Assembly (NCBI GenBank): GCA_030620155.1
Contig: JAUXFF010000005.1
Coordinates: forward strand, 1-46,482
DNA from: Candidatus Cloacimonadota bacterium
GTDB taxonomy: Bacteria; Cloacimonadota; Cloacimonadia; Cloacimonadales; TCS61
Length of the DNA stretch: 46,482 bases
Direction of reading: 5' to 3'
Numbering within the stretch: the stretch's first letter is position 1; every line of letters starts with the position of its first letter. Shown here in pieces: positions 3,789 through 23,179 of the stretch. A program made the translations under genes and the position numbers. Under the pieces are notes generated by a model. The model was not told the origin of the DNA, searched no databases, and worked only from the letters and a program-made list of their open reading frames with translations.

Positions 3789-3789
3789 A

Positions 3790-5192: not shown

Positions 5193-5602
5193 TGTTAAAA
5201 AAAATCAATCATATTGGTATTGCAGTTAAAGATTTAGACGTTGCTGTTGAATTTTATAAGAAACTGGGGCTTAAAGTTGAAGCCTGTGAAATCGTTGAAT
5301 CTCAAAAAGTTAAGGTTGCATTTATACCATTAGGTGAGGTTCGAATTGAGCTTCTTGAAGCAACTTCTGACGATAGCCCGATCGCCAAGTTCATAGAAAA
5401 GAAGGGAGAAGGAGTTCATCATATAGCGATGGGAACGGATAAGCTTATTCCCACCTTAAAAGATGTTGAATCCCAAAATATTCACTTAATTGATAGGGTT
5501 CCCAGGAAAGGCGCCCATAATATGGAAATTGCATTTATACATCCAAAATCTACTCATGGAGTCTTATTTGAACTCTGTGAAGAAAAAGAAAAAAAGACAT
5601 GA
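5192..5602 (+). CDS. mce: Methylmalonyl-CoA epimerase (glyoxalase/VOC family)
   Basis: HIGIAVKDLDVAVEFYKKLGL, GEGVHHIAMG and RVPRKGAHNMEIAFIHPKSTHGVLFELCE. TAATG overlap with korC. Confidence 0.93.
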   Translation: MLKKINHIGIAVKDLDVAVEFYKKLGLKVEACEIVESQKVKVAFIPLGEVRIELLEATSDDSPIAKFIEKKGEGVHHIAMGTDKLIPTLKDVESQNIHLIDRVPRKGAHNMEIAFIHPKSTHGVLFELCEEKEKKT

Positions 5603-5904
5603 CTTTTTATAACATAGAATCTTTAAAAAACCTCTATATAAAAAATAAATTTTATAATGTCAAAAATATTTATTAAATTAATTGACAAAGTTTTTGAAAT
5701 TTAGATTGTCGCCCCAAAAAAAATGAAAAAGAGAGATATAACAGAATTCAACTAGCAGGTTTCTTTAAAAAGAGGTTATGTTGGAAATAAGCCGGGTTGC
5801 TGCTTATTCAATTTATAATTTTATTTTTGTTTATTTTTGCAATAACGAGCAAAAAAGTAAATCTGAAGAGCGAAGTGCAAAACTGGTAAATATATAATAC
5901 GTTG

Positions 5905-5941
5905 AAACGTAGTTTATGATTAAATAGACTACGTTTTTTTT
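5905..5941 (+). terminator. Rho-independent terminator-like hairpin in the leader of the second OFOR operon
   Basis: AAACGTAGT(5905-5913)...ACTACGTTT(5928-5936) inverted repeat running into an uninterrupted T tract, ~45 bp upstream of the next start codon. Confidence 0.75.
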
Positions 5942-5982
5942 ATACTCTATAAGTATTTTGATTTTTTGCGACGGGAGATTTT

Positions 5983-6258
5983 ATGAAATATTGGGAAAAA
6001 CCATTTGGCAAAGAAAAGCCAAAAGTTCCTAATGGTGAAATCCATATACTCAAAGAAAGATGTAAAGGATGCGGTTTCTGTGTGGAATACTGCCCTAAGG
6101 ATGTCCTTGAAATGTCAGATGAATTTAATACCAAAGGTTATCATCCACCAAAAATAATGAATGAAGAGGACTGTGTGAACTGTGGTTTATGTGAGACTAT
6201 CTGCCCTGAATTTGCTATCTGGTGTACTTTGAAAGAGGAGGTAGCTCTTGAAAACTAA
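5983..6258 (+). CDS. 2-oxoacid:ferredoxin oxidoreductase, delta (ferredoxin) subunit (second operon)
   Basis: CKGCGFCVEYCP and CVNCGLCETICP motifs. First gene of the operon. Confidence 0.88.
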   Translation: MKYWEKPFGKEKPKVPNGEIHILKERCKGCGFCVEYCPKDVLEMSDEFNTKGYHPPKIMNEEDCVNCGLCETICPEFAIWCTLKEEVALEN

Positions 6259-7459
6259 CTTAAAAGCGGTTTTAACTGGAACACATACTCTTAGTGGTAA
6301 TGAGGCATTTATAGAAGGCGCCTTTGCTGCAGGATGCCGTTTTCTCGCTGCTTATCCAATCATGCCTGCCATTGAAACGATAGAAAGATACTTGAAAAGA
6401 AGCGCAGAGGTCGGTGCCACATTTATTCAGATGGAAGATGAAATTTCAGCTCTTGCTGCTGTTATAGGTGCTTCCTGGACTGGGAAAAAGTCAATGACAG
6501 TAACATCCGGTCCCGGCTTTTCCAATATGATGGAGCATTTGGGACTCGGTGTGATGCTGGAAACTCCTTGTGTAATTGTTGATGTGCAACAGTCAGGACC
6601 ATCATTAGGAATTCCAACTCGCGCAGGGCAAGGCGATATGATGCAGGCAAGATGGGGTTCTCATGGAGACTATGAAGTAATTACCCTTTCTCCAAGTTCG
6701 CCACAAGAAATGTTCGATTTTACTATTAAAGCTTTTAATTTCTCCGAAAAATATAGAACACCTGTCATTATCATGTCGGATGAGTATGTGGCTCATAAGA
6801 AAGAAAAGGTAATAATTCCTCGGGCTGATGAGATAAAAATTACACCTAGACGATATTTTAAAGGGCAAAAGGATAAGTACTTACCATTCAAAAGAGATAA
6901 AGATTTTGTTCCTCGTATGGTAGATATTGGTGATGGCTATAAATTTCATGTTACAGGTTTGACTCATGATGATAAAGGTTATCCTATTATGCTTGAGGAG
7001 TGTCAGGAATATAATGTTCACCCCATTTTATGGAAAATTCGTAATGATACAGAAAAGATTATTGAATTTCAGGAAATTGGTACTAAAGATGCTGAGATTG
7101 TAATTGTCTATTATGGAGCAACATCAGGTGCTGCGAGCAAAGCAATAAAGCAGGCGAGGGATCTGGGTATAAAAGTCGGTAGTCTTAAACTTGATACGGT
7201 TTGGCCCTTCCCTGATAAGAAAATCACCGAACTTGCAGAGAAAGTGAAAGCTTTTGTTGTTCCGGAAATAAATTATGGGCAAATTGTTTCTGAAGTTGAG
7301 CGCTGCAGTTATGGAAATGCAAATGTTGTCTTTGTTTCCCATGGAGAAAATGGAATCGATAACACAGAGGATATAGTTTCTGCTATAAAATTAGCTCTGA
7401 ATGAAGAGAAAATAAAAAAAGGAATTATTGAATATCAGAGTCAAACAGGGAGAGTATAA
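6248..7459 (+). CDS. 2-oxoacid:ferredoxin oxidoreductase alpha-subunit paralog 1 (motif-degenerate)
   Basis: Full-length alpha-type protein, but YPIMPAIE replaces YPITPSTE and QQSGPSLGIPTR replaces QRGGPSTGVPTK. TTG start overlaps the delta gene. Confidence 0.88.
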   Translation: MKTNLKAVLTGTHTLSGNEAFIEGAFAAGCRFLAAYPIMPAIETIERYLKRSAEVGATFIQMEDEISALAAVIGASWTGKKSMTVTSGPGFSNMMEHLGLGVMLETPCVIVDVQQSGPSLGIPTRAGQGDMMQARWGSHGDYEVITLSPSSPQEMFDFTIKAFNFSEKYRTPVIIMSDEYVAHKKEKVIIPRADEIKITPRRYFKGQKDKYLPFKRDKDFVPRMVDIGDGYKFHVTGLTHDDKGYPIMLEECQEYNVHPILWKIRNDTEKIIEFQEIGTKDAEIVIVYYGATSGAASKAIKQARDLGIKVGSLKLDTVWPFPDKKITELAEKVKAFVVPEINYGQIVSEVERCSYGNANVVFVSHGENGIDNTEDIVSAIKLALNEEKIKKGIIEYQSQTGRV

Positions 7460-8305
7460 ATGGAACCTTTAAGAAAGACTGAAAAAGATATTCATCCAAT
7501 GGATGATTTACTCCGTATGGATAGAATTCCTCATATATGGTGCCCAGGTTGTGGAATTGGTACGGCTGTGACTGCTTTTGCCGCAGGTCTTGCCAAAGCA
7601 GAAATTGATTTGACCAAGACATGCATAGTTTCTGGTATTGGTTGTACCGGAAGAGTAGCAGGCTATGTAAAACTGGATTCATTTCATACAACTCATGGTA
7701 GAGCCATTGCTTTTGCAACCGGGATACAAGTTGCTAATCCAGATCTGAAAGTGATTGTCTTTTCAGGCGATGGAGATTTAATCTCGATTGGTGGGAATCA
7801 TTTTATTCACGCAGCAAGAAGAAATATTAATATGCTCGTTATCTGTGTAAATAATTTTATCTATGCAATGACAGGCGGACAGGTTGCGCCAACAACTCCG
7901 CTTGCTACTTATGCCACAACTTCACCTTTTGGTTGTGTTGAACCACCATTTAATATTCCATACTTAGCAGATTCCTCCGGAGCAGTATATGTGGCAAGAT
8001 GGACCGCTCTTCATGTTCGCAGACTCACAAATTCCATTGCTGAGGCATTAAAAAAACCAGGATTTTCCGTGATTGAAGTTATATCTCCCTGTGCAATGTA
8101 CTATTCAAGAATTAACCGACTGGGAGACGGACTTGATATGATGAAATTCTATCATGATAATACAGAGATAAGACACGGAGAAGATACAAAGAATCTTGAT
8201 ATTGGATTTCAAACAAAGATAATTGTTGGTAAATTTGTTGATAGAGAAAGACCGACTTATATGGACTCATATAATAAATGGCTTTCCGGAACAAAGAAGG
8301 ACTGA
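7460..8305 (+). CDS. 2-oxoacid:ferredoxin oxidoreductase beta-subunit paralog 1 (canonical)
   Basis: WCPGCGIGT, VSGIGCTGR, SGDGDLISIGGNHFIH, NNFIYAMTGGQ and EVISPCAMYYSRINR are all intact. Confidence 0.93.
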   Translation: MEPLRKTEKDIHPMDDLLRMDRIPHIWCPGCGIGTAVTAFAAGLAKAEIDLTKTCIVSGIGCTGRVAGYVKLDSFHTTHGRAIAFATGIQVANPDLKVIVFSGDGDLISIGGNHFIHAARRNINMLVICVNNFIYAMTGGQVAPTTPLATYATTSPFGCVEPPFNIPYLADSSGAVYVARWTALHVRRLTNSIAEALKKPGFSVIEVISPCAMYYSRINRLGDGLDMMKFYHDNTEIRHGEDTKNLDIGFQTKIIVGKFVDRERPTYMDSYNKWLSGTKKD

Positions 8306-8307
8306 AA

Positions 8308-9561
8308 ATGAAAGCAAATCCAAGAGATGTAAATACAGGAACTTATTACATGGATGGCGATGTAGCAGCCGGACATGGTGCTTTGGCTGCCGGATGCAGA
8401 TTTATTGGAGGCTATCCTATTACTCCATCAACCGAAGCAGCAGAGACATTTGCCCGCATTGCTCCCAAAGCCGGTGCTGTGTTTATTCAAATGGAAGATG
8501 AACTGGGTTCCATTGCCTCCGTGATGGGTGCAAGTTGGTCCGGAGTAAAAACAATGACTATTACATCAGGACCCGGCTACTCTTTGATGATGGAGATTAT
8601 CGGATTGGGTGCAATGATAGAAGCTCCTTTTGTTATACTTAATATCCAGCGGGGTGGACCTTCCACCGGGGTTCCAACTAAAACAGGTCAAGCAGATATG
8701 ATGCAATCAAGATGGGGTTCACATGGAGATTATGAAATTATTGCTATCTCTCCCGATTCCCCACAAGAATTATTTGATTACACAATTAAAGCATTCAACC
8801 TTTCAGAAAAGTATCGTTGTCCTGTTATGATAATGTCTGATGAATGCGTTGGTCATATGTCTGAAAAGGTAGTGATTCCACCGGCTGAAGAGATTGAAAT
8901 TGAGCCACGAAGATTTTATAATGGACCCAAAGAAAAATATCTGCCATTCAAACCAGATCAAGACCTTGTTCCTAAGATGGTAAAAGCAGGTGATGGCTAC
9001 AACTTGTATATCACAGGGCTTGTTCACGATGAAAGAGGGTATCCGATAACAAATCAAAAGGAAAAGGGCAAAAGGCAACAGTTTCCTACAAGAAGATTGG
9101 TAGATAAAATTCGACTTAATGCAGATAAGATTATTGAATTGAATGAAGAAGGGATGGATGATGCTGAGGTTGTTGTAGTCTCTTATGGAATATCATATCG
9201 AGTTGCTATAAGAGGAATTGAAAAAGCAAGGGAAAAAGGTATAAAAGTAGGTAATCTTCGTCTGATAACAGTCTGGCCTTTCCCGGATAAAAAAATAACA
9301 GAACTCGCTTCCAAAGTAAAAGCATTTGTGGTTCCTGAAATCAATTATGGTCAAATCGTCTTTGAGGTTGAAAGATGTAGTCATGGACAGGCAAATGTCG
9401 TGCTTATTCCTCATGGTGGAGCAGGAGTTCATAACCCTGATGATATAGCAGAGGCAATCGAATATGCAGTTAAGGAAAAGAAGAAGATCAGAAAAGTTAT
9501 TGAATGGAAAACACGACTTGAAAAATTTGTTTTTGAGGGAGGTTATAAATTAAACAAATGA
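8308..9561 (+). CDS. 2-oxoacid:ferredoxin oxidoreductase alpha-subunit paralog 2 (canonical)
   Basis: GYPITPSTE, QMEDE and QRGGPSTGVPTK intact. ATG at 8308 just after the upstream stop. Confidence 0.92.
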   Translation: MKANPRDVNTGTYYMDGDVAAGHGALAAGCRFIGGYPITPSTEAAETFARIAPKAGAVFIQMEDELGSIASVMGASWSGVKTMTITSGPGYSLMMEIIGLGAMIEAPFVILNIQRGGPSTGVPTKTGQADMMQSRWGSHGDYEIIAISPDSPQELFDYTIKAFNLSEKYRCPVMIMSDECVGHMSEKVVIPPAEEIEIEPRRFYNGPKEKYLPFKPDQDLVPKMVKAGDGYNLYITGLVHDERGYPITNQKEKGKRQQFPTRRLVDKIRLNADKIIELNEEGMDDAEVVVVSYGISYRVAIRGIEKAREKGIKVGNLRLITVWPFPDKKITELASKVKAFVVPEINYGQIVFEVERCSHGQANVVLIPHGGAGVHNPDDIAEAIEYAVKEKKKIRKVIEWKTRLEKFVFEGGYKLNK

Positions 9562-10319
9562 ACCCAATTATAACTGCTTTTGCAAACGGAATTAAAAAGT
9601 CGGGGGTTGAACTATCTAACATGGTGCTTGTCTCAGATATCCCATTTGAACCCGAAATCATAAAAGAATTAGGAGTTGATTTTTTCCACATAACTCGCGG
9701 CAGGGCAATTGCCTTTGGTACCGGATTGAAACTTGGAAATCCTGATCTGAAAATAGTAGCCTTTATCGGTGACTTGATGACTCTGGGTGGGAATCATCTT
9801 GTTCATTCAGGAAGAAGAAATATGGAAATGCTTGTTATTTGTGTGAATAACTTTGTTTATAGAGAGATAGCAGGAACACCCGCTCCCTCAGTTTCTCCAG
9901 GATTTTCTGCTTTTTCAACCTTTGAGAAACCGTTCAATGCTCCACATCTCGCGAATTCCTGTGGTGCAGTATTTACAGCAAGATGGACAGCTCTGCATAC
10001 CAATGATCTCACAAATTCAATAGCTAATGCTTTAGATAAACGAGGGTTTTCTGTGATTGAAGTCCTGTCACCAGGTCCGAATTTCTATAAAGATATAAAC
10101 CAAATTGATTCTGAATTATTGGATTTTTATTATAAAAATTCTGTGACAAAAAATAATGAGGACACTCGTAATGTGGAAATTACTCCCGGAGAAAAAATTA
10201 TAACAGGCGAATTTACAGATAAGGAAAAACCTACATTTATTGACACTTATAATGCCCAACTTAGTAAAATATTAGGCGATAAATTTATACCACACGGAGG
10301 ACAAAGTGGCGGAGATTAG
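9558..10319 (+). CDS. OFOR beta-subunit paralog 2, predicted non-catalytic (lacks TPP motif and Fe-S ligands)
   Basis: Aligns with the 7460-8305 product along its length but starts after the WCPGCG segment. VSGIGC->VSDIPF, GDGDLIS->GD--LMT, NNFIYAMTGGQ->NNFVYREIAGT, SPCAMYY->SPGPNFY. Confidence 0.88.
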   Translation: MNPIITAFANGIKKSGVELSNMVLVSDIPFEPEIIKELGVDFFHITRGRAIAFGTGLKLGNPDLKIVAFIGDLMTLGGNHLVHSGRRNMEMLVICVNNFVYREIAGTPAPSVSPGFSAFSTFEKPFNAPHLANSCGAVFTARWTALHTNDLTNSIANALDKRGFSVIEVLSPGPNFYKDINQIDSELLDFYYKNSVTKNNEDTRNVEITPGEKIITGEFTDKEKPTFIDTYNAQLSKILGDKFIPHGGQSGGD

Positions 10320-10836
10320 ATTTGCAGGTTATGGAGGGCAAGGTATTATCAGGTCTGGAATTATTGTTGGCAAGGGCGCTTCAATTTATGACAATAAATT
10401 TTCTACTATGAATCAGTCATTTGGTCCTGAAGCAAGAGGTGGAGCATGTAGCTCTCAGGTAGTATTGTCAGACACTAAAGTGCTATATCCTTATGTTACA
10501 GTTTCAGATGTCCTTGTTGCAATGTCCCAGGAAGGTTATGATATGTTTGAACCGGAATTAAGTGATAAAGGAATACTTTTGGTAGATGAGGATCTGGTAA
10601 AGATTAATCCTCCCCGTGGAAAAATAAAAATTTTATCAATACCTTCCACCAGAATTGCTGAAGAATTAGGGAATAGAATATTCGCAAATGTAGTAATGCT
10701 TGGATTTTTCACTGCTATAACCAAGCTGGTTTCAAAAGAAGGAATGGAAAAAGCAGTTGCAGATTCTGTACCATCAAGATTTATTAACCTCAATCTTAAG
10801 GCATTCCAGGCTGGGTATGATTATAAGAAGGAATAA
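10306..10836 (+). CDS. 2-oxoacid:ferredoxin oxidoreductase gamma subunit (second operon)
   Basis: MAEIRFAGYGGQGIIRSGIIVGKGA and SFGPEARGGACSSQVVLS. GTG start overlaps the upstream gene. Confidence 0.9.
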   Translation: MAEIRFAGYGGQGIIRSGIIVGKGASIYDNKFSTMNQSFGPEARGGACSSQVVLSDTKVLYPYVTVSDVLVAMSQEGYDMFEPELSDKGILLVDEDLVKINPPRGKIKILSIPSTRIAEELGNRIFANVVMLGFFTAITKLVSKEGMEKAVADSVPSRFINLNLKAFQAGYDYKKE

Positions 10837-10838
10837 CC

Positions 10839-11246
10839 ATGAGTTATAAAATGACACGAGATATAATAAAAAATTCTTTGGTTCAAAAAATTGAAGAGCT
10901 TTCTGGACAAAACGTTTTTGACTGCTATCAGTGCGGAAATTGTTCCTCCGGATGCCCAGTTGTTGATTATATGGATATTATGCCAAATCAAGTTCTGCGT
11001 CTTGCACAATTGGGAGCAACCGAGGATATCTTAAATTCTGAAACAATATGGATTTGCTCTGCCTGCCTGCAATGTTCCACCAGATGCCCTAAAGGTGTAG
11101 AAGTTGCTAAAGTTATGGAAGCACTCCGCTCTATTAATTTACGGAAAAGAATCGGAACTCTTGATCCCAAAAAGATAGAGATAGAGGATCTTCAAAATTT
11201 ACCCCCAATTGCCTTAGTGGGTGCTTTCAGAAAACTAACAGGATAA
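10839..11246 (+). CDS. hdrC: Heterodisulfide reductase subunit C-like Fe-S protein
   Basis: CYQCGNCSSGCPV...MDIMPNQVLRLAQLG...WICSACLQCSTRCPKGVEVAKVM. Confidence 0.92.
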   Translation: MSYKMTRDIIKNSLVQKIEELSGQNVFDCYQCGNCSSGCPVVDYMDIMPNQVLRLAQLGATEDILNSETIWICSACLQCSTRCPKGVEVAKVMEALRSINLRKRIGTLDPKKIEIEDLQNLPPIALVGAFRKLTG

Positions 11247-11279: not shown

Positions 11280-12158
11280 ATGAAATTACCTTACTATCCG
11301 GGTTGCACTTTAAAAGCAAATGCAGCAAATTTTGAAGAAGCTGCAATGCGAGTAATGAAGGATTTAGGATACGAACTTCAGGAGATGAAAGATTGGGTCT
11401 GCTGCGGAACTGTATTTTCTATGACAAATGATGATCTAATGCTCCAATTGGCATCCATTCGCAACCTGTTAAGGGCAGAAGAACAAAATCTGAATGAGCT
11501 TGTAGTTCTTTGCAGTATGTGTTATAATACATTACAAAGAGCAAAAAAGTTCATTACAGAAGATGAAGAAAGTTTAGATAAAGTTAATGACCTTATGTAT
11601 AAAGAAAATATTCGCTATAAAGGTTCTGTTGATGTCACTCATCTTTTAACTGTTCTCAAAGACAGAATCACTTTTGATAGAATCAAAGAAAAAGTAGAAA
11701 AACCTTTATCTTTATTAAAAATTGGTGGATATTATGGATGCCTGTTACTAAGACCAAAAGAGTTTGCGATCGACGATTTCGAAGACCCTACTATTATTGA
11801 AGATCTTCTTTCATCACTCGGGGCTGAAAGCATTGTATTTCCATATCGTCTGGAATGCTGCGGTGCATATCAAACCATAACAAAGAAAGATGTAACTATC
11901 AAAAGAACTTATGAGATAATAAATTCTGCCAGGAAATCCGGATGTGAAGCGATTGTAACAAGTTGCCCCCTATGTGCATTCAACCTTGACCAAAGACAAA
12001 AGGAAACAGCAGAGGAATTCATAGAATTTGAGCAAATGCCGGTGTTTTATTTCACTGAACTTATGTCTGTTGCTTTGGGAGGAGGATGGGATAAGAGTTG
12101 GAGCAAATTGCATTATGCAGATCCCGAACCAATATTGAAAGAAAAGGGTTTAATATGA
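11280..12158 (+). CDS. hdrB: Heterodisulfide reductase subunit B-like (two CCG domains)
   Basis: YYPGCTLKA...WVCCGT...LCSMC and GYYGCLLL...ECCGAYQ...SCPLC. Confidence 0.94.
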   Translation: MKLPYYPGCTLKANAANFEEAAMRVMKDLGYELQEMKDWVCCGTVFSMTNDDLMLQLASIRNLLRAEEQNLNELVVLCSMCYNTLQRAKKFITEDEESLDKVNDLMYKENIRYKGSVDVTHLLTVLKDRITFDRIKEKVEKPLSLLKIGGYYGCLLLRPKEFAIDDFEDPTIIEDLLSSLGAESIVFPYRLECCGAYQTITKKDVTIKRTYEIINSARKSGCEAIVTSCPLCAFNLDQRQKETAEEFIEFEQMPVFYFTELMSVALGGGWDKSWSKLHYADPEPILKEKGLI

Positions 12159-12192: not shown

Positions 12193-14145
12193 ATGAAAAG
12201 AATCGGAGTTTTTATCTGTCATTGTGGTATAAATATTAAAGGCACTGTTGATGTTGAAAAAATAACTGAGGAAATTGCTGATTATCCGGGTGTTGCATAT
12301 ATTGAAAATTATATTTTCATGTGCTCTGAACCAGGACAAAAACTTATAAGAGATGTCATTATTGAGCATAAACTTGATGGTGTAGTGGTGGCAGCTTGTT
12401 CCCCCACACTTCATGAAACTACTTTCCAGGATGCCCTGGAGGAAATGAATATTAACAGACATCAGCTTGAAGTAGCAAATATTCGTGAACAATGCAGTTG
12501 GGTTCATACAGATATTGAAGAATCAACAAGAAAAGCAAATTTGATCATTAAAACTGCTATAGAAAAACTCAAACTTAATGAATCACTTACTCCCATTTTC
12601 GCTCCCTTAACAAAAAGAACTCTTGTTATTGGTGGGGGAATTGCAGGAATACAGGCAGCTCTTGATATCGCTGACGGTGGTTATGAAGTTTTACTGGTTG
12701 AGAGGAACCCCTCGATCGGCGGTCACATGATCCAACTTTCCGAGACTTTCCCTACACTGGACTGTTCTCAATGTATTATGACTCCCAAAATGGTAGCAAT
12801 TAATAAACATAAAAATATTAAATTATATGCAAATAGTGAAATCGAATCCATAGAAGGTTTTTTTGGGAATTTCAAAGTAAGAATTAAACGTAAACCGCTA
12901 TATGTTGACCCTGACAAATGCACTCTATGTGACGACTGCACAGCGGTTTGCCCGGTTGTAGTTCCTAGTGAATATGATGAAGGATTAACCTGGAGGAAAG
13001 CTATTTATATTCCTTTCCCTCAGTCAATTCCTGCTACATTCACTATTGATACTGAAAACTGTCTGGGATTTAATCCGATTGCTTGTACTAAATGCCAGGA
13101 TGCTTGTGAACCTGATGCAATAAATTATGATATGAAGCCTGAAACTTTTGAAGAAGAAATAGGTGCAGTAATTGTAGCGACCGGATTTGACCTTAATCCT
13201 GTTGAAAATATGGCTGAATACGGTTATGGGAAATATCCTGATGTACTTAATGGTTTGCAGTTTGAAAGAATTCTCTCTGCTACAGGTCCCACAGGCGGCG
13301 AAATGTTTCGTCCTTCAGATGGCAAAGTTCCCAAAGAGGTTGTGTTCATTCAATGTTCCGGTTCCCGTGATCCCGAAAGACATCTCCCGTATTGTTCCAG
13401 GATTTGCTGTATGTATACATTAAAACATGCAAAATTGTATAAACACAAGGTCCACGATGGTCAGCCTTATATATTCTATATTGATATCCGTTCAGGGGGG
13501 AAAAGATATGAGGAATTTGTTCAGCAAGCAGTTTCTGAAGATGGAATAGTATATATCAGGGGAAAGGTTTCCAGGGTTTATAGAGAAGGCGAAAAAATGA
13601 TTGTTCACGGAATGGATACCCTGACCGGTAAAAAGATTGAAATCGAAGCTGACATGGTAGTTCTCGCTATGGGTATCATTCCAAGTGCTGATACTGACAA
13701 ACTGGTTAATATACTCAGGTTAAATACAGATGAAAATGGTTTTTTGGTCGAAGCTCATCCTAAGCTTAGACCTGTTGAAAGTATACAGTCCGGATTTTAT
13801 CTGGCAGGTACAGCTCAGGGACCTAAAGATATTCCCGATGCTGTTTCTCAGGCTTCAGGAGCTGCTGCAAAGGTTCTTGCTTTGATGTCTAATGATGAAA
13901 TCTCTCATTCGCCGATTGTTGCTATAGTGAATGAAGACCTTTGTTCAGGTTGCGGTATTTGTGTGGATACCTGTCCTTACGGTGCTCGCGAACTGGATAT
14001 AATAGAAAAAATTGCTACAGTTAATGATGTCCTCTGCGAGGGATGTGGTGCCTGTATTAGTGTCTGTCCCGCTAGTGCAGCTCAACAGAAAAACCTTACA
14101 GATGAACAGATATTTAATATGATTAGAATTTACACAAATGCTTAA
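12193..14145 (+). CDS. hdrA: Heterodisulfide reductase subunit A-like flavoprotein (full length)
   Basis: IGVFICHCG N-terminal domain, VIGGGIAGIQAALD FAD site, TLDCSQCIMTPKM, inserted ferredoxin domain, two C-terminal CxxCxxCxxxCP motifs. Confidence 0.95.
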   Translation: MKRIGVFICHCGINIKGTVDVEKITEEIADYPGVAYIENYIFMCSEPGQKLIRDVIIEHKLDGVVVAACSPTLHETTFQDALEEMNINRHQLEVANIREQCSWVHTDIEESTRKANLIIKTAIEKLKLNESLTPIFAPLTKRTLVIGGGIAGIQAALDIADGGYEVLLVERNPSIGGHMIQLSETFPTLDCSQCIMTPKMVAINKHKNIKLYANSEIESIEGFFGNFKVRIKRKPLYVDPDKCTLCDDCTAVCPVVVPSEYDEGLTWRKAIYIPFPQSIPATFTIDTENCLGFNPIACTKCQDACEPDAINYDMKPETFEEEIGAVIVATGFDLNPVENMAEYGYGKYPDVLNGLQFERILSATGPTGGEMFRPSDGKVPKEVVFIQCSGSRDPERHLPYCSRICCMYTLKHAKLYKHKVHDGQPYIFYIDIRSGGKRYEEFVQQAVSEDGIVYIRGKVSRVYREGEKMIVHGMDTLTGKKIEIEADMVVLAMGIIPSADTDKLVNILRLNTDENGFLVEAHPKLRPVESIQSGFYLAGTAQGPKDIPDAVSQASGAAAKVLALMSNDEISHSPIVAIVNEDLCSGCGICVDTCPYGARELDIIEKIATVNDVLCEGCGACISVCPASAAQQKNLTDEQIFNMIRIYTNA

Positions 14146-14210: not shown

Positions 14211-14633
14211 ATGAAAGAGCATAAGCCAAAGATTATATGTTTTCTGTGTAAATGGTGTACCTCTGCAGGTGCAGATTTAGCAGGAACAAGCCGACTCCGT
14301 TATCCTCCAGCCATCTTACCTATAAGAGTTATGTGTTCCAGCAGAATAGACCCTGCTTTTATTATTAAGGCTTTTTTAAATGGTGCTGATGGAGTTTTCA
14401 TCGGTGGTTGTCACCCGGGTGATTGCCATTATCAAGAGGGAAATTATCATACACGAAGAAGATTTGCTATATTAAAAAAGGTTTTTGATGCTCTAGGATT
14501 GGAATCCAAAAGATTGAAATTATCGTGGATTTCAGCATCGGAAGGAGTAAAATTTGCTCGTGTCAGTAACGAATATACAGAGAAGATAAAAAGTTTTGGA
14601 GAAAATCCGACAAAATCAAATGTTTTCTTATAA
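14211..14633 (+). CDS. mvhD: MvhD-family [2Fe-2S] electron-transfer subunit (copy 1)
   Basis: FLCKWCTSAGADLAG, RVMCSSRIDP, GGCHPGDCHYQEGNY...RRR. Confidence 0.93.
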   Translation: MKEHKPKIICFLCKWCTSAGADLAGTSRLRYPPAILPIRVMCSSRIDPAFIIKAFLNGADGVFIGGCHPGDCHYQEGNYHTRRRFAILKKVFDALGLESKRLKLSWISASEGVKFARVSNEYTEKIKSFGENPTKSNVFL

Positions 14634-14783: not shown

Positions 14784-15209
14784 ATGAAGGAACAATTTAC
14801 TCCTAAAATAGTAGGTTTTCTTTGTAACTGGTGTTCTTATGCAGGTGCGGATCTGGCCGGTTCAGCTAAATTGGAAATATTACCTTCTCTTACAGTTATC
14901 AGGGTGATGTGTTCCAGTAGAATTGACTCAAATTTAGTTTTAACAACTTTATTATTAGGTGCAGATGGAATACTGATTGCAGGATGTCATCCGGGTGATT
15001 GTCATTATGAAAAAGGAAATTATTATGCTCGCAGAAGATTCGCCTTATTGAGAAAAGTAGTTGAAACCTTAAAAATAGATCCAGAAAGATTGCAACTATC
15101 ATGGGTATCTGCCTCAGAAGGAAAAAGATATGCTGAAGTGGTTAACCAGTTTACTGACAAAATAAGAAAGTTAGGTCCAAACCCTATACAAACTAATCCT
15201 TATCTATAG
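14784..15209 (+). CDS. mvhD: MvhD-family [2Fe-2S] electron-transfer subunit (copy 2)
   Basis: FLCNWCSYAGADLAG, RVMCSSRIDS, AGCHPGDCHYEKGNYYARRR. Confidence 0.93.
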   Translation: MKEQFTPKIVGFLCNWCSYAGADLAGSAKLEILPSLTVIRVMCSSRIDSNLVLTTLLLGADGILIAGCHPGDCHYEKGNYYARRRFALLRKVVETLKIDPERLQLSWVSASEGKRYAEVVNQFTDKIRKLGPNPIQTNPYL

Positions 15210-15236: not shown

Positions 15237-16517
15237 GTGAATAACTCTGATATATTAGTAATCGGTGCTGGTGTTGCAGGAATGGAAGCAAGTTTATTAC
15301 TTGCGAATACCGGCAAAAAAGTATATTTAGTAGAGAAAGAGTCTTTAATTGGTGGGAATATTATAAAATATGAGGATGTTTTTCCCAATATGGAATGCTC
15401 AACCTGCATGATAGCCCCCAAACAACAGGAAGTGCTGCAAAATGAAAATATTGAACTTTTAATGCTTAGTACGGTGGAAAAAGTTCAAGGAGAAATAGGA
15501 GATTTCACAGTAACTGTTAAGAAGAAAGCAAGGTATGTCAGTCTTGTGGATTGTATTGGCTGTGGAATGTGTTATGAACCCTGTCCTGTCAGCTTGAAAA
15601 ATGAATTTGAACAGAATCTTTCCGAGAAAAAAGCTATCTATGTACCTTGTCCCGGTTCCCTGCCAAATGTTCCTGCAATTGATCCTGAATATTGCCTGCA
15701 ACTCAACGGCAAGAAAACCTGTAATGCCTGTGTTGAAGCTTGCGCATTTGGAGCAATAAACCTTTCCGATAAAGATGAAAAAATTGAATTAAAAGTTGGA
15801 GCAATTATCGTAGCTTCCGGATTTGATATTGTAGATCCAATTGGATTTCCTCAATATGGATATGGAAAGCATCCTAATGTATATACAGCAATGGAGGTTG
15901 AAAGATTATATGCTTCCAATGGACCAACCGAAGGCAAGATAACTCTGCGAAAAGGGGATGGAACTCCCAACTCTATAGCAATAATTCAATGCGTTGGACG
16001 AGAACAACAGGGTTATTGTTCTAGTGTGTGCTGTATGTACTCCTTCAAGTTAGCTCACTATCTAAAGGATAAATTACCTAATGTAAAAATTTATGACTTT
16101 CATTCAGATTTATGCATACCGGGAAAGTACTATCAGAAATTCTTTCAGGATATTAAAGATGAAGGTATCAATTTTATTTATTCTCCTGTTGATAAGATCA
16201 AGGTTGAAGGAAATGAAAAAAGTTTATCAATAGAATACTATAATGGAAAAGATGAAAAAGAGAAACTATCCACAGATATGGTGATTCTTTCTCTGGCAAT
16301 GATTCAGGGAAAAGATACTGCTTCTCTTTCTAAGTTTCTTGGGATTGAACAGGATAAGAGGGGTTTCTTTATGAATCAAAGTATTCAATTGGGTTCTGTA
16401 GATACTTCCAAACCTGGAATTTTTCTTACCGGCTGCGCTGAAGGACCTAAAGATATTCAGAGTTCCATTACTCAAGCTGAAGCAGCTGTGGGCAAAGTGA
16501 TGTCTTATTTTCAATAA
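15237..16517 (+). CDS. Short HdrA-like flavoprotein (QmoA-like architecture)
   Basis: 426 aa: VIGAGVAGMEASLLLA, NMECSTCMIAPKQ and CIGCGMCYEPCP insert; lacks the N-terminal HdrA domain and the C-terminal ferredoxin pair. Confidence 0.85.
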   Translation: MNNSDILVIGAGVAGMEASLLLANTGKKVYLVEKESLIGGNIIKYEDVFPNMECSTCMIAPKQQEVLQNENIELLMLSTVEKVQGEIGDFTVTVKKKARYVSLVDCIGCGMCYEPCPVSLKNEFEQNLSEKKAIYVPCPGSLPNVPAIDPEYCLQLNGKKTCNACVEACAFGAINLSDKDEKIELKVGAIIVASGFDIVDPIGFPQYGYGKHPNVYTAMEVERLYASNGPTEGKITLRKGDGTPNSIAIIQCVGREQQGYCSSVCCMYSFKLAHYLKDKLPNVKIYDFHSDLCIPGKYYQKFFQDIKDEGINFIYSPVDKIKVEGNEKSLSIEYYNGKDEKEKLSTDMVILSLAMIQGKDTASLSKFLGIEQDKRGFFMNQSIQLGSVDTSKPGIFLTGCAEGPKDIQSSITQAEAAVGKVMSYFQ

Positions 16518-16557
16518 AGTGAATTGAATTCTTAAATGTGAAAACAAAGGTGATAAA

Positions 16558-18258
16558 ATGAGTAAGAAAATTGGAGTTTATGTATGTGAATGCGGACCTA
16601 ATATTGCTGATAAAGTGGATATTAAGAAAATTTTAGCAGAAATATCTTCTCTTAGTGAACCGCCTGAGAGGATAATAATTACCAAGAAACACAAGCTTCT
16701 ATGCTCAAATGAAGGGCAAGATTTCCTTGCTGATGAGATTAAAAAGAATGAATTAACACATCTGGTTATTGCAGCTTGCTCCCCGCGAGATCATGATATT
16801 ACATTTATGAATGTGTGTAAGAGAACAAATCTTAACCCTTATTTATACAAGCTTATTAATATCCGCGAGCATTGTGCCTGGATCATCCCAGATAAGGAGG
16901 AGGCCACAGAAAAAGCAATTCAGTATATCCGTGCAGGTATAAACAGAGTAGCTTATCAGGCTCCACTTACAGAAAAAGAATTAGATAGTATTCCTGATGT
17001 GCTCGTAATAGGTGCCGGTATTGCCGGTATAGAAAGTAGTCTATCTCTTGCTAGTGAGAAAAGAAAAGTATATTTATTAGAAAGAACCTCCTCAATAGGT
17101 GGTAAAGTAACTAAATTTGAAAAAATACTTCCTCATCAGGGAACAAATCTTGATATTATCCGAGAAAAAATACAAGCAGTTCAGGAAAATGAAAACATAA
17201 AAATTTTTACTGAAACAGAAGTAGATAAAGCTGTAGGTTTTTTGGGTAATTTTGAAATCACTTTGAAGAACATTCATAACGATGATCAAAAAAATGAGTT
17301 TAAAGTCGGAGCGATAGTAGTTGCAACCGGTTATAATTTATTTAATCCGGAAAAAATCCCTCGCTATGGATATGGAAAAATAGAAGATGTCTATACTTCT
17401 ATGGAAATTGAAGAGAGTAATTCTAAAACAGGCAAAATCCTTCTTAAATCCGGCAAACCTCCTAGAACTGCAGCTCTTATTCACTGTGTTGGTAGAGAAG
17501 AAAAGGGATATTGTTCGCGAGTATGTTGTAATTATATGTTTAAAATAGCTCAATATCTCAAAGAAAAAAGACCCGATATAAAAATCACAGAATTCTATCA
17601 AGACCTGTGTTTGCCAAATAAAGCAGACCAGGAATTCTTTGTTGATACAAAAAATAAGGAAGTTGATTTCATTCGCTTTAAAGATATTTCAATAAAGCAG
17701 AAGGATAAAGAAAAATTTATTGAATATACAAAAACAGATGGGAAAAAGGAGAAAATTCCTGCTGAGATGATCATACTTGCACCGGCAATAGAACCTGCTG
17801 CTGGTTCGGAAGATATAGCAGAACTCCTTAATATTTCCTTAGATGAAATGGGTTTTTTCCAGGAAGCTCATCAAAAACTGAATCCTGTTGCTACTTCAAT
17901 TGATGGTGTTTTTATCGTTGGTTCTGCTCAGAACCCGAAAAACATTCCAGATTCTATAATGGATGCTCAAGCTGTTGGTGGAAAGATACTTACACAACTG
18001 ATACCTGGAGTGAAATTAGTTCCGGAAGTTACAATATCAGAAATATCAGATGCATTCTGCACTGGTTGTCAGACCTGCCTTTCTGTATGTTCCTATGGAG
18101 CTATCTATTTTGATGAGGATAGAAATATCTCAGTAGTTAATGAAGCAATTTGTAGAGGATGTGGTAATTGTGTGGCAAGTTGTCCCTCTGGAGCAGCTCA
18201 TGCCAAACATTTTACTTCTCCTCAAATTTATCAGGAAGTTCTTGAAGCAATAAGATAG
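16558..18258 (+). CDS. HdrA-like flavoprotein lacking the central Fe-S insertion
   Basis: 566 aa: IGVYVCECGPNI N-terminal domain, VIGAGIAGIESSLSLA, C-terminal CTGCQTCLSVCS/CRGCGNCVASCP. No Cys where other HdrAs have xxxCxxCMxxP, and no inserted ferredoxin domain. Confidence 0.87.
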   Translation: MSKKIGVYVCECGPNIADKVDIKKILAEISSLSEPPERIIITKKHKLLCSNEGQDFLADEIKKNELTHLVIAACSPRDHDITFMNVCKRTNLNPYLYKLINIREHCAWIIPDKEEATEKAIQYIRAGINRVAYQAPLTEKELDSIPDVLVIGAGIAGIESSLSLASEKRKVYLLERTSSIGGKVTKFEKILPHQGTNLDIIREKIQAVQENENIKIFTETEVDKAVGFLGNFEITLKNIHNDDQKNEFKVGAIVVATGYNLFNPEKIPRYGYGKIEDVYTSMEIEESNSKTGKILLKSGKPPRTAALIHCVGREEKGYCSRVCCNYMFKIAQYLKEKRPDIKITEFYQDLCLPNKADQEFFVDTKNKEVDFIRFKDISIKQKDKEKFIEYTKTDGKKEKIPAEMIILAPAIEPAAGSEDIAELLNISLDEMGFFQEAHQKLNPVATSIDGVFIVGSAQNPKNIPDSIMDAQAVGGKILTQLIPGVKLVPEVTISEISDAFCTGCQTCLSVCSYGAIYFDEDRNISVVNEAICRGCGNCVASCPSGAAHAKHFTSPQIYQEVLEAIR

Positions 18259-18271
18259 AAAAAGAGGAAAT

Positions 18272-19441
18272 ATGAATACAGCGGAAAATGAATTATACAG
18301 CCCCAAGAAGGGAGCAATGATTTCTATAAAAAATAGTATAAGGGAAACAATTCTCCGTTTTTTCAAAGAAGCATTAGAGAAAAAAACTTTTGATGCAATA
18401 CTTATTCCTGTAAAAGTTCCTGCAGGTGATTCTTATACCTGGATTCTCGTTGAAGATATATCACTACTTAAGAATGCCGCACCCATTGCACCAATTATGC
18501 CGGTTCAGGGAGCTAATGCTTTATCCAGTCTTACCAGGAAAGGAAAAGGGAATTTAAAGATCGCTGCCATTTTGAGACCTTGTGAAATCAGAGCTGCTAT
18601 TGAACTCTCCAAACTTGAACAGGTCAATCTTGAGACTCTGTACCTTTTTAGTTTTGACTGTCCAGGTGCATTACCTTTATTGGATTACACTAAAAATCCC
18701 CCCAAGGGCGAAGAACTATTCGAATCTTTTTTTAATGAAAATAAATGGAATGAAGAACAAATCAAACCGGTTTGTAAAATGTGCGATAATTTCAGCATTC
18801 CTAACTGTGATTTGCATTTTGGAATATTGGGCGTTGAAAAAAATAATCTTTTACTTATTCCAAACAGTTCCAAAGGAGAAAGTGTTCTAAATGAAATGGG
18901 AATTGCTTATAAAAATGACTTATCATCCTGGAAGAAGAAAGTAAATGAAATTGAAAAGGAAAAAGAAAAGACAAAAAAAGAAACTTATCATAATATTCAA
19001 CCAATGGTAGAAGGACTTGATAGTTTATTACAAACCTTTGCTAAATGTATTGGTTGTCACAATTGTATGACCGTATGCCCCATCTGTTATTGTCGTCAGT
19101 GTTATTTTGATTCCGAGGTTTCAAAATTTACTTCCGACGATTACCTTTTACGAGCTGAAAAGCGAGGAGGTCTGCGATTTCCTACTGATATTATTTTATT
19201 CCAGTCGGGCAGAATGTCGCATATGAGTCTATCTTGTGTTTCCTGTGGGATGTGTGAGGACGTTTGTCCTACATCAATTCCTGTAGCACAGATCTTTAGT
19301 TATGTGGCAGATAAAACACAAAAAGCTTTTGAATATAAACCCGGAAGAAATATTGGAGAACCTCTACCGTTAAAAGAGTATAAAGAAGAGGAACTCCAGG
19401 AGATAAAAAAATCATTAAACGAGTCTGTTGGTCAGGAGTAA
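18272..19441 (+). CDS. FrhB/FdhB-like (F420 hydrogenase/dehydrogenase beta family) Fe-S flavoprotein, copy 1
   Basis: AILRPCEIRA and CIGCHNCMTVCPICYCRQCYF...CVSCGMCEDVCP, typical of Hdr-associated FdhB-like proteins. Confidence 0.78.
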   Translation: MNTAENELYSPKKGAMISIKNSIRETILRFFKEALEKKTFDAILIPVKVPAGDSYTWILVEDISLLKNAAPIAPIMPVQGANALSSLTRKGKGNLKIAAILRPCEIRAAIELSKLEQVNLETLYLFSFDCPGALPLLDYTKNPPKGEELFESFFNENKWNEEQIKPVCKMCDNFSIPNCDLHFGILGVEKNNLLLIPNSSKGESVLNEMGIAYKNDLSSWKKKVNEIEKEKEKTKKETYHNIQPMVEGLDSLLQTFAKCIGCHNCMTVCPICYCRQCYFDSEVSKFTSDDYLLRAEKRGGLRFPTDIILFQSGRMSHMSLSCVSCGMCEDVCPTSIPVAQIFSYVADKTQKAFEYKPGRNIGEPLPLKEYKEEELQEIKKSLNESVGQE

Positions 19442-19445
19442 TAAG

Positions 19446-20546
19446 ATGGATAAAGTATTAAAGATAAATGAAAGTGTAGAAAAAAGTATAATCAATCTCC
19501 TGAAATTTCTTCTTGAAAGTAAAAAAATTAATGGAGTATTTACTTTAAGAAAATTATATGATAATGATTCTGTGGGATATTCCTTGATTACGGATGTATC
19601 TGAATTGGATAATGCTGTACCTTTTTATCCATTAATGACTGCAAATGCAGGAAAGATATTATCTCATTTTACCCAAAAAAAACCAATTAAAAAACCGATA
19701 GCCGCAGTATTAAGGCCTTGTGAGTTAAGAGCATTTGTAGAACTTGTGAAAAGAGAGCAGGGAAGTTTGGAAAACTTCTTGTTTATTTCATCAAGTTGCG
19801 GAGGGGTCTTTCCAATTAAAACAGTTGAGCCCGATAAATACATTTCTAATTATTGGGATACTGTAAAAAATGCTGATATCTCTGCCGATATAAGACCAAC
19901 CTGCAAAGCTTGTGAATACTTCACACCATATAATGCGGATATTACAGTTTCTTTGATTGGAGAAAAAAAGTTGGATAAAGAATGTAGGATATTTTTGAAT
20001 ACTGATAAAGCAAATAAAATTGTTAAAGGATTTACTGGAGAGATGTTAGAAGAAAAACTTGAATCGTCAGAGATATCGTCTCTTCTGGATAAGAGAAAGA
20101 CTGAGAAGAAAAAACTTTTCGATGAGATTCACATTGAGGATTTAGGATTAGAAGGGATGGTGGAAGTCTTCGGGAAATGTATTGGTTGCCACGTGTGCAG
20201 TCGTGTTTGTCCTATTTGCTATTGCATTCTTTGTGATTTTGAATCTGCCACTTATGATTACAGTCAATATGATTATGAAAAAGAACTTCATAAAAAAGGA
20301 GGATTACGACTTCCTCCTGACACCATATTTTTTCAGATCGGACGATTAACACATATGAGTTTCTCCTGTGTTGGCTGTGGAATGTGTACAGATGTATGCC
20401 CGGTGGATATTCCTGTTGCTGCAATTTTCCAGAAAACAGGAGAAGAAACCCGTCAACTCTTCGATTATCTACCAGGTAAAGATGTAGAAGAGAAAATACC
20501 TGTTATGATATTTAAAGAAGAAGAATTTACTGAACTCGGAGAATAA
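19446..20546 (+). CDS. FrhB/FdhB-like Fe-S flavoprotein, copy 2
   Basis: AVLRPCELRAFVELV and CIGCHVCSRVCPICYCILCDF...CVGCGMCTDVCP. Paralog of the preceding ORF. Confidence 0.78.
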   Translation: MDKVLKINESVEKSIINLLKFLLESKKINGVFTLRKLYDNDSVGYSLITDVSELDNAVPFYPLMTANAGKILSHFTQKKPIKKPIAAVLRPCELRAFVELVKREQGSLENFLFISSSCGGVFPIKTVEPDKYISNYWDTVKNADISADIRPTCKACEYFTPYNADITVSLIGEKKLDKECRIFLNTDKANKIVKGFTGEMLEEKLESSEISSLLDKRKTEKKKLFDEIHIEDLGLEGMVEVFGKCIGCHVCSRVCPICYCILCDFESATYDYSQYDYEKELHKKGGLRLPPDTIFFQIGRLTHMSFSCVGCGMCTDVCPVDIPVAAIFQKTGEETRQLFDYLPGKDVEEKIPVMIFKEEEFTELGE

Positions 20547-20609: not shown

Positions 20610-20762
20610 ATGGCAGATAAATTAAAAATGATCGTATTTTATTTTTTACAATTAATGACTATTGCCTTTGAATTAAATTACAAATCATATGGGTTGGAGT
20701 TAAATTATATCAATTCCAAACCGACTCTTAAAGAAAAAACTTATTGTAGGAGTTTCCTATGA
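20610..20762 (+). CDS. Predicted 50-aa small protein translationally coupled to frdB
   Basis: ATG at 20610 preceded by GGAAGGAGGG. Reads MADKLKMIVFYFLQLMTIAFELNYKSYGLELNYINSKPTLKEKTYCRSFL then TGA, overlapping the next ATG as ATGA (20759-20762). Confidence 0.5.
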   Translation: MADKLKMIVFYFLQLMTIAFELNYKSYGLELNYINSKPTLKEKTYCRSFL

Positions 20763-21514
20763 AAAAAGAATTGAATATAATGGAGAGAATTGCTGAAGCA
20801 AGCAAAGCAATTACAACAGGAGTGGACAAAAAAGATGTTGAACATTGGGTAGAAGTTCATATAATGGGCAAAGCCTATAAAGTTCCAGCTGATCTAACTA
20901 TTCTAACTGCAATAGAATACGCAGGATATCGCTTTGTTAGAAGTTGTGGATGCCGTCAGGGGCATTGCGGTGCCTGTGCAACTATTTATCGTATAAAAGG
21001 AGATTATAAGTTGCAATGTAACTTGGCCTGTCAAACAAGAGTTGAGGATGGAATGGAACTGGTTCAAATTCCTTTTACTCCAGCACCTAGAGCTTTTTAT
21101 GATATTCTTAAAGAAGATTATGTTGTGAATGTGTTTTTTAAATTTTATCCAGAAGTAGCACGATGTGTGAGTTGTAATACTTGTACAAAGGCATGTCCAC
21201 AGGATCTTGAAGTTATGGACTATATTCAAGCCGCTATTAGAGGTGACTTTGAATCAATGGCTGATAAATCCTTTGATTGTATCCAATGCGGAATGTGTGC
21301 AATTAGGTGTCCGGCTGAAATTATACAGTATCATGTTGCTCAACTCGGTAGAAGAATGTATGGTCATTATGGTGAATTTGAACCAGAACATTTAAAAAAA
21401 CGTATTGAAGAGATTAACGAAGGTAAATTTGAAAAAGATTTAGATGAATTAACAAGTCTCAGCAGAAAAGAACTGGAAAAATTATATGCTGAGCGCATAA
21501 GAGAAAAAGAATAG
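20759..21514 (+). CDS. frdB: Fumarate reductase/succinate dehydrogenase iron-sulfur subunit-like (2Fe-2S plus two 4Fe-4S)
   Basis: RSCGCRQGHCGACATIYR...C plant-type 2Fe-2S, then CVSCNTCTKACP and CIQCGMCAIRCP. Confidence 0.82.
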   Translation: MKKELNIMERIAEASKAITTGVDKKDVEHWVEVHIMGKAYKVPADLTILTAIEYAGYRFVRSCGCRQGHCGACATIYRIKGDYKLQCNLACQTRVEDGMELVQIPFTPAPRAFYDILKEDYVVNVFFKFYPEVARCVSCNTCTKACPQDLEVMDYIQAAIRGDFESMADKSFDCIQCGMCAIRCPAEIIQYHVAQLGRRMYGHYGEFEPEHLKKRIEEINEGKFEKDLDELTSLSRKELEKLYAERIREKE

Positions 21515-21523
21515 GGAGTTATA

Positions 21524-23179
21524 ATGGCTGAAATAAAATATATTGGTGGTTATCCAGAACATTTTCGCAAATATATAGACATTGTTAGTAGAACCAGAAT
21601 GAAAAGAAAAGACTACACTCCTCCTGCAATGAATAAAGAGGAGCAACAGGAAGCTTTAAAAAACCATCCTGATTATGCTCCAGGAGGCAAACGCAAAATA
21701 TCTATTGGACAAAATAAAGGAGATATTGCTCCCATTGAAGTTGCTGATTTGTTGGAAGCATATCCTGTTATTACACCAGATGAAATAGATTTAAAGAAAG
21801 CAGATTACAGTGTGGACCTAATGGTGATCGGAGGTGGATTAGCAGGTACTACAGCCTGTATCTGGGCTAATAAAAAAGGTATTGATAAAAATAAGATTTT
21901 ACTGGTCAATAAATTACGACATGGAGATGCTAATTCAATAATGGCAGAAGGTGGGACTCAGGTAGCTGACCGAAAAGAGGATTCATTAAGAGCACATTAT
22001 TTAGATATAATGGGCGGGGGTCACTTTGCTAATAAACCAGATGTTGTTCGTGCATTAGTGAGTGATGCCCCATTAATTATGGAGTGGTTGCATGAATTAG
22101 GAGTAATATTTGATAGAGAAGAAAACGGTGATTTTGCTGAGAAGTTCGCTGGAGGGCTGTCACGGAAAAGATTACATTACTGTCGGGATTATACAGGTCT
22201 TGAAGAATTTAGGGTCATTAGAGATGATTTCAGAAATAGACAGATTTCTTACATTGAGCACTCTCCTGTAATCGAGTTATTAACAGATGGTGAAAAAGTT
22301 ACAGGTGCGGTTCTTTATAATCTTGAAACAGGAGAATACAGTATCGTTGAAGCCAAAACAACAATTATGGCCACTGGCGGCTTTGGGAGGCTACATATAA
22401 GAGGTTTCCCAACCACTAACCATTATGGAGCAACTGCAGACGGCATTATTCTATCTTATCGGGTCGGTGCTAAATTAAGAGATACTGATACTGTACAATA
22501 TCATCCCACAGGTGCTGCTTATCCGGTTCAAATTGTTGGTTACTTACTTACAGAAAAACTGAGAAGTGCAGGGGCTCAACCTGTTAATAAGGACGGCGAA
22601 GCGTTTGTCTATCCACTTGAACCAAGAGATGTAGAAGCATCAGCCATAATCAGAGAGTGTTATGTTGAGAATAAAAGTATAACCACACCGACCGGCTTGA
22701 GAGGAGTATGGCTTGATACACCAATGATTGAAGTTAAGAATGGAGAAGGTTATATTAAGAAAAACTTTCCGGGTATGAATAGGTTATATGAACGTAACAA
22801 TATTGATATGGCAAAGGACCCTGTTCTTATCTTTCCTACCCTTCATTACCAGAATGGTGGAGTTGAAACAGATCCATGGGGGCATACAAATATAGACGGT
22901 CTCTGGGTAGCTGGTGAAATTATGGGTGGAGTCCATGGGAAGAATAGATTAATGGGAAATTCTACACTTGATACTATGGTATTTGGCAGGAGAACCGGTA
23001 TCTCTACCGCAGAATATATAAAATCAGGTAAGAAGCAGGGTAAACTAACACTTGAGCATTTACCCAAATATATTAAAATGATAAAGGAAGCTGGTATCAA
23101 AACTAACAGAAAGGCTCCTATTCTGCTACCAGAATACCGCGGTAAAGCAGCTCTTGCTAGAATGATTGATATTTTTTAA
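21524..23179 (+). CDS. frdA: Fumarate reductase/succinate dehydrogenase flavoprotein subunit-like
   Basis: VIGGGLAGTTA, MAEGGTQVA, QYHPTG, PRDVEASAI, LHYQNGGVETD and GGVHGKNRLMGNSTLDTMVFGRR. Confidence 0.88.
   Translation: MAEIKYIGGYPEHFRKYIDIVSRTRMKRKDYTPPAMNKEEQQEALKNHPDYAPGGKRKISIGQNKGDIAPIEVADLLEAYPVITPDEIDLKKADYSVDLMVIGGGLAGTTACIWANKKGIDKNKILLVNKLRHGDANSIMAEGGTQVADRKEDSLRAHYLDIMGGGHFANKPDVVRALVSDAPLIMEWLHELGVIFDREENGDFAEKFAGGLSRKRLHYCRDYTGLEEFRVIRDDFRNRQISYIEHSPVIELLTDGEKVTGAVLYNLETGEYSIVEAKTTIMATGGFGRLHIRGFPTTNHYGATADGIILSYRVGAKLRDTDTVQYHPTGAAYPVQIVGYLLTEKLRSAGAQPVNKDGEAFVYPLEPRDVEASAIIRECYVENKSITTPTGLRGVWLDTPMIEVKNGEGYIKKNFPGMNRLYERNNIDMAKDPVLIFPTLHYQNGGVETDPWGHTNIDGLWVAGEIMGGVHGKNRLMGNSTLDTMVFGRRTGISTAEYIKSGKKQGKLTLEHLPKYIKMIKEAGIKTNRKAPILLPEYRGKAALARMIDIF

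Follow-up and report, generated by a model that had tools for sequence, protein, structure and literature searches.

A tandem pair of complementary HdrA paralogues in a conserved six-gene bacterial operon: a putative asymmetric HdrA heterodimer

The QmoAB(C) complex of sulfate reducers contains two flavoproteins derived from HdrA, one of which is short, and the FlxABCD-HdrABC system combines a bacterial HdrA with an MvhD-type subunit and iron-sulfur partner subunits. In ANME archaea and in Moorella, tandem and fused HdrAs that complement each other have already been proposed to form heterodimers (Chadwick 2022, PMC9012536). According to the published description, ANME HdrA5/6 and HdrA12/13 are encoded by adjacent genes, one protein having the N-domain and no Cys197, the other Cys197 and no N-domain, and their C-terminal ferredoxin domains are complementary as well; some ANME-1 clusters hold an FdhB without FdhA (PMC9012536). 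The fused type II HdrAs (HdrA3/4), including that of Moorella MetFV-HdrABC-MvhD, show the same partition in a single chain (PMC9012536, PMC12054007). In the solved Mvh-Hdr complex, the ligand Cys197 of the N-domain cluster comes from the other HdrA copy (PMC9012536), and E356 and K409 near the FAD are key residues for bifurcation (PMC12054007). In the Elp-Hdr and Fdh-Hdr complexes of methanogens (8rvu, 7bkb; PMC12350162), FdhB/ElpB and MvhD/ElpC feed HdrA, the electrons of the carrier being passed to it through the MvhD-type subunit.

Here we describe two adjacent HdrA-like proteins of a Candidatus Cloacimonadota bacterium, encoded on a contig of 46,482 nucleotides (C37, the window) from a 2.5 Mb genome that is 93% complete; the nearest loci of the first protein, at 88-90% identity, are from Candidatus Cloacimonadota MAGs. 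HdrA' (426 amino acids, GTG start, 15237..16517, forward strand like all neighbours described below up to FrdA) consists of the FAD/TrxR part with the inserted 2x[4Fe-4S] domain. It aligns with the solved HdrA (5odc) over residues ~146-560 only, lacks the N-domain and the C-terminal ferredoxin pair, and carries C54/C57 at the positions of C194/C197 of 5odc as well as the eight cysteines of the insertion. HdrA'' (566 amino acids, ATG start, 16558..18258) aligns through the N-domain and the TrxR half, skips the insertion, and continues through the remainder to the C-terminal 2x[4Fe-4S] domain; the five N-domain cysteines (11/13/46/71/103, 5odc numbering here and below) and the eight C-terminal ones are present, the inserted ferredoxin domain is absent and T/D stand at the positions of C194/C197. 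The sequence-only reading had described exactly this reciprocal loss of domains, and the alignment bears it out for both proteins. The FAD-side CX12CX3CC cluster (Cys 386/399/403/404), E356 and K409 occur in HdrA' and HdrA'' alike.

The split extends well beyond the window. After removal of duplicates, it is followed by 47/47 distinct HdrA' sequences, while 39 of the 41 distinct HdrA'' sequences have all retained cysteines and 40/41 lack every cysteine found only in the partner. The division of cysteines between the two proteins is well beyond chance. K409 is replaced by a residue other than Lys in 4/47 HdrA' and 2/41 HdrA''. That the pair represents two decaying duplicates of one HdrA, as the loss of domains from each protein might suggest, is practically out of the question, since every retained ligand is conserved across about nine phyla and the operon is strictly kept.

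We found that the pair forms the core of an operon of six genes, MvhD-HdrA'-HdrA''-FdhB1-FdhB2-MvhD, which amounts to three pairs of paralogues. The search of named genomes yielded 47 loci of this module from about nine phylum-level bacterial groups, titled Cloacimonadota, Neomarinimicrobiota, Latescibacterota, KSB1, Eisenbacteria, Krumholzibacteriota, Fermentibacteria/Aegiribacteria, Delongbacteria and Aminicenantes/Acidobacteriota. MvhD lies immediately 5' of HdrA' in 48/48 loci, a paralogue from the same genome as the window being counted, and HdrA'' follows directly 3' in all 44 loci with room for it (42 identified by script, plus L097 and the frameshifted L116, which were inspected by eye). 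Then come FdhB1 and FdhB2, each forming one group in the tree (FdhB1 weakly, 77), and a second MvhD ends the module. In the window, the pair is preceded by two MvhD genes, not by the single one read earlier: MvhD_a (14211..14633, FlpD 172.8 bits) and MvhD_b (14784..15209, FlpD 169.9 bits). The former clusters with the closing MvhD of the module at other loci and the latter with the upstream MvhD, the one always immediately 5' of HdrA', in a single clade (SH-aLRT 99); hence all six genes are present in the window, with MvhD_a moved to the front.

Upstream of the module, the host cluster encodes an HdrC-like 4Fe-4S protein (10839..11246), whose orthologues start HdrCBA in relatives, HdrB with its CCG domains (11280..12158, Pfam PF02754) and a full-length HdrA (12193..14145) with all domains, C197, E356 and K409, which falls in a clade apart from the pair. 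As this HdrA has both the N-domain and Cys197 and is encoded in the same cluster, each paralogue might pair with it as a regulatory or alternative subunit of mixed dimers. We consider this improbable: in most loci of other phyla the pair is intact with no full-length HdrA nearby, and selection for mixed dimers would not yield exact mutual complementarity.

In trees built from the TrxR core that all these proteins share, HdrA' forms one clade (100/99) and HdrA'' another (100/100), and a 100/100 branch sets both, along with a full-length HdrA encoded at 26918, apart from the methanogen HdrA, the HdrA at 12193 and both halves of a fused HdrA. The two proteins are not members of independent HdrA types that always occur with other partners, the finding that would have spoken against their association; they form neighbouring clades and co-occur in strict tandem. 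Their closest full-length relative, at 26918-28918, adjoins the MvhGA hydrogenase and has E356, with Ala in place of K409 and Val in place of N-domain Cys103; judged from these residues, it may not be bifurcating.

The fused HdrA, of about 1,015 amino acids, is found in the same genome as the window (contig C178) and next to modules elsewhere, and shows the same cysteine complementarity within one chain. Its truncated half comes first and its N-domain half second, whereas HdrA3/4 as published have the N-domain half first. Trees in which HdrA' was held with the N-terminal half of the fusion were rejected (AU test, p=0.0027), as were those holding HdrA'' with the C-terminal half (p=0.016). With caution, as the trees have no root and the branches of the fused halves are long, the complementary partition seems to have arisen at least twice in these genomes. 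Such repeated origin favours an obligate heterodimer, and nothing else argues as strongly for a functional one. Like the ANME tandem pairs, HdrA' and HdrA'' are adjacent and co-inherited, with the N-domain cysteines in one protein and Cys197 in the other, but the module is bacterial, no CofH was detected, and MvhD and FdhB are doubled. From the type II fused HdrAs the pair differs in being encoded by separate genes, and the trees and AU tests reject a shared origin with the corresponding halves of the local fusion. The evolutionary distances of HdrA' and HdrA'' are correlated (r=0.89), but controls with the fused HdrA correlate just as highly (0.81-0.90), so this is not specific co-evolution and we dropped it as evidence. 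An AlphaFold model of the fused HdrA had a mean pLDDT of 73, with values below 50 around Cys197 and the insertion regions. A further protein of 1090 amino acids in the same genome (L060, G000:C72, 198-3470) begins with a NuoG-type 2Fe-2S-like part followed by HdrA-like halves.

The two genes downstream of the pair, previously read as FrhB-like, prove closest to FdhB of the HdrABC-FdhAB/Elp-Hdr complexes. FdhB1 (18272..19441, FdhB/ElpB-type with C-terminal 4Fe-4S ligands) matches 9t1s_M with a phmmer E-value of 4.5e-32 and has 15 invariant cysteines; FdhB2 (19428..20546), of the same type, matches it with 1.8e-35. The 15 cysteines conserved in both agree with the FdhB pattern. An AlphaFold model of FdhB2 (pLDDT 81) has 7bkb_E, the best Foldseek match, and 8rvu_E (ElpB) as nearest folds. 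The arrangement resembles Elp-Hdr and Fdh-Hdr, but FdhA/ElpA is missing (no FdhA-like gene was assigned in the window), HdrA is split, FdhB and MvhD are duplicated, and no F420 synthesis was found. No CofH scored above the cut-off in the genome itself or in 39 relatives, while three control genomes did; there was one weak partial F420_ligase match. F420 is therefore unlikely as the carrier of FdhB. The host bacteria appear to lack F420, as far as gene content tells, and we infer that NAD(P)H, rather than F420, may be the carrier.

In some MvhD copies of sulfur-type clusters, an in-frame TGA stands at VAG*HPGDCH/VGG*HPGDCH, a selenocysteine position. Such copies lie at 311-679 and 6803-7171 of L043 (G000:C239) and at 11093-11461 of L058 (G000:C178), and also in L098, L100, L101, L103, L105, L107, L108 and L113. 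The MvhDs of the module in the window have Cys at this position, so that selenocysteine and cysteine forms occur in one genome.

It had been suggested that the pair resembles the partitioning of HdrA between QmoA and QmoB, without an obvious QmoC. Indeed no membrane gene was assigned between 10839 and 23179, but the resemblance holds as an analogy only and membership of the pair in Qmo is unsupported. A QmoAB-type complex, with QmoA corresponding to HdrA' and QmoB to HdrA'' plus MvhD and with a membrane or APS reductase partner, is very improbable. The domain split is similar, Qmo subunits too are HdrA-derived, and QmoAB-HdrBC forms without QmoC exist (PMC10504309). However, AprA did not score above the cut-off in the genome, neither QmoC nor AprBA accompanies the module, MvhD is separate and not fused, and the two FdhB partners are foreign to Qmo. 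The plasmid search for Qmo sequences returned a single full-length HdrA, from Ilyobacter, and a weakly matching cyanobacterial oxidoreductase. Compared with FlxABCD-HdrABC, the module lacks a FlxA-type NAD(P)H flavoprotein, its partners are of the FdhB type and its HdrA consists of two proteins.

Overall, we favour, with a probability of about two in three, the view that HdrA' and HdrA'' form an obligate HdrA heterodimer, as its two non-equivalent subunits, within a doubled [FdhB-MvhD-HdrA]2 core. That the pair forms one HdrA-equivalent unit, as first proposed from the sequence, is well supported by the cysteine complementarity, the strict tandem, the neighbouring clades and the natural fusion of the same partition. 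The N-domain cluster of HdrA'' would be completed by Cys197 of HdrA'. Since the N-domain is found only in HdrA'' and Cys197 only in HdrA', one shared cluster per heterodimer is expected, and the heterodimer would have one full electron path, not two. Hydride exchange with a carrier, which may be NAD(P)H, would take place at FdhB1 and FdhB2, and the electrons would pass through MvhD as in ElpB/ElpC, entering by the C-terminal ferredoxins of HdrA'', the MvhD entry side in solved HdrA complexes. Low-potential electrons would leave by the inserted ferredoxin domain of HdrA'. With two MvhD and two FdhB paralogues, the whole may be a doubled Elp-Hdr/Fdh-Hdr-type core that bifurcates or confurcates electrons. 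The core module has no HdrB, and outside the window its high-potential branch is uncertain.

The proposal that the pair serves FrdAB depends on genomic context. In the window, the core set is placed inside a KorABC-HdrCBA-FrdBA-MvhGA-SucCD-fumarase cluster, and in its subclade the module lies between HdrA/MvhD and FrdB. FdhB2 is followed directly by a FrdB/TfrB-like iron-sulfur subunit (20759..21514; TfrB/RnfC/SdhB models) and a divergent FrdA/TfrA-like flavoprotein (21524..23179; PRK06263 293 bits). The window also has a GlcD/HdrC/MvhD/HdrD/HdrA/MvhD/MvhGA block, SucCD, fumarase, malate dehydrogenases and malic enzyme. The other genes of the window include uvrB, methylmalonyl-CoA epimerase and three Kor (2-oxoacid:ferredoxin oxidoreductase) sets; one ORF was read as PEP carboxykinase, without a Pfam match at the limit used. 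The Kor-like alpha/beta sets run from 2610 to 10836 (alpha at 2610, 6248 and 8278), and the third beta, at 9558, is divergent. A search for ATP-citrate lyase gave no match, and the controls were likewise all silent.

Several observations would fit a pair that serves as a dedicated adaptor, rendering FrdAB-catalysed fumarate reduction (or succinate oxidation) electron-bifurcating. Besides the FrdBA of the window, a native FrdBA occupies the same place in a related genome (G009), in which one contig ends past FdhB2 and another starts before FrdBA. Both contig ends carry the same tandem repeat, which supports a window-like order FdhB2-FrdBA; the repeat (GGTTCAGAGGTTCACGGATT...), between FdhB2 and FrdB, breaks the assembly at the end of L039 and the start of L117 (C144/C204). 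FrdBA-HdrCBA lies upstream of the module in L075, and the modules of L074 and L115 stand among Kor and SucCD genes. These three loci and the window subclade make up a TCA-type context with Kor, SucCD, fumarase or FrdAB. We nevertheless regard the adaptor as rather unlikely. Most copies of the module adjoin a fused HdrA, MvhD (often with in-frame TGA), an FdhB/LutB-like protein and AsrA/HydB, where FrdAB is absent. The pair is missing from the Kor-HdrCBA-MvhD-FrdBA-MvhGA-SucCD cluster of other Cloacimonadota (L061, L063-L065); a cluster of this kind has been read as reductive-TCA in Ca. Celaenobacter (PMC8542988). Moreover, the FrdA of the window, the only one found in its genome, is of another type than in other members of the subclade and shares only 52-55% identity with FrdA from the other Cloacimonadota that were searched. 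In the same cluster position as in relatives, it is an apparent replacement. Given the differing FrdA types, the pair and FrdAB do not move together as one unit. Nor is the pair specific to FrdAB; from its genome position, a role with FrdAB is plausible only in the window subclade and perhaps in L075.

The sulfur-type context resembles the Hdr-sulfur clusters of Ca. Stygibacter (PMC8542988). In the genome of the window (C239, C178) it also includes DsrE, AsrB/HydG, HdrC, YedE and rhodaneses. On C178 (L058, 298-11060 and 11861-14599), the cluster comprises fused HdrA, selenocysteine-type MvhD, FdhB/LutB-like protein, AsrA/HydB, DsrE2, AsrB/HydG, HdrC, YedE, rhodaneses and FrhB; lacking HdrB, it is a candidate NAD(P)H-sulfur Hdr system.

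For the putative heterodimeric core in the window, the most likely role is to connect the HdrBC/FrdAB branch with the carrier and with the ferredoxin of Kor (2-oxoglutarate:ferredoxin oxidoreductase). The low-potential end would be the Kor ferredoxin and the high-potential end could be HdrBC/FrdAB (fumarate/succinate). The outcome would be either ferredoxin reduction driven by fumarate or, in reverse, succinate oxidation assisted by ferredoxin.

A more far-reaching reading, which is possible but doubtful, takes the six-gene set as a distinct bacterial enzyme in which a symmetric FdhB-MvhD-HdrA dimer has undergone duplication and specialisation of every subunit, with a different carrier for each half. 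The FdhBs might, for example, be split between a mid-potential and a high-potential partner, with ferredoxin exiting through HdrA'. If true, the enzyme would be an asymmetric electron bifurcase that works without F420 and HdrB.

New in this locus are the doubled FdhB/MvhD operon in bacteria apparently without F420, the origin of the pair, which the trees suggest to be independent of the local fused HdrA, and the insertion of the module, in a Cloacimonadota cluster of the TCA type, between HdrCBA and FrdBA. Solved complexes show symmetric HdrA dimers; proposals of asymmetric ones have come mostly from genomes. An operon of paired paralogues together with an independent fused version offers a natural test of whether the splitting of clusters fixes the direction of electron flow. 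The module is a candidate for balancing ferredoxin with another carrier in F420-less bacteria with reductive-TCA or propionate-type metabolism.
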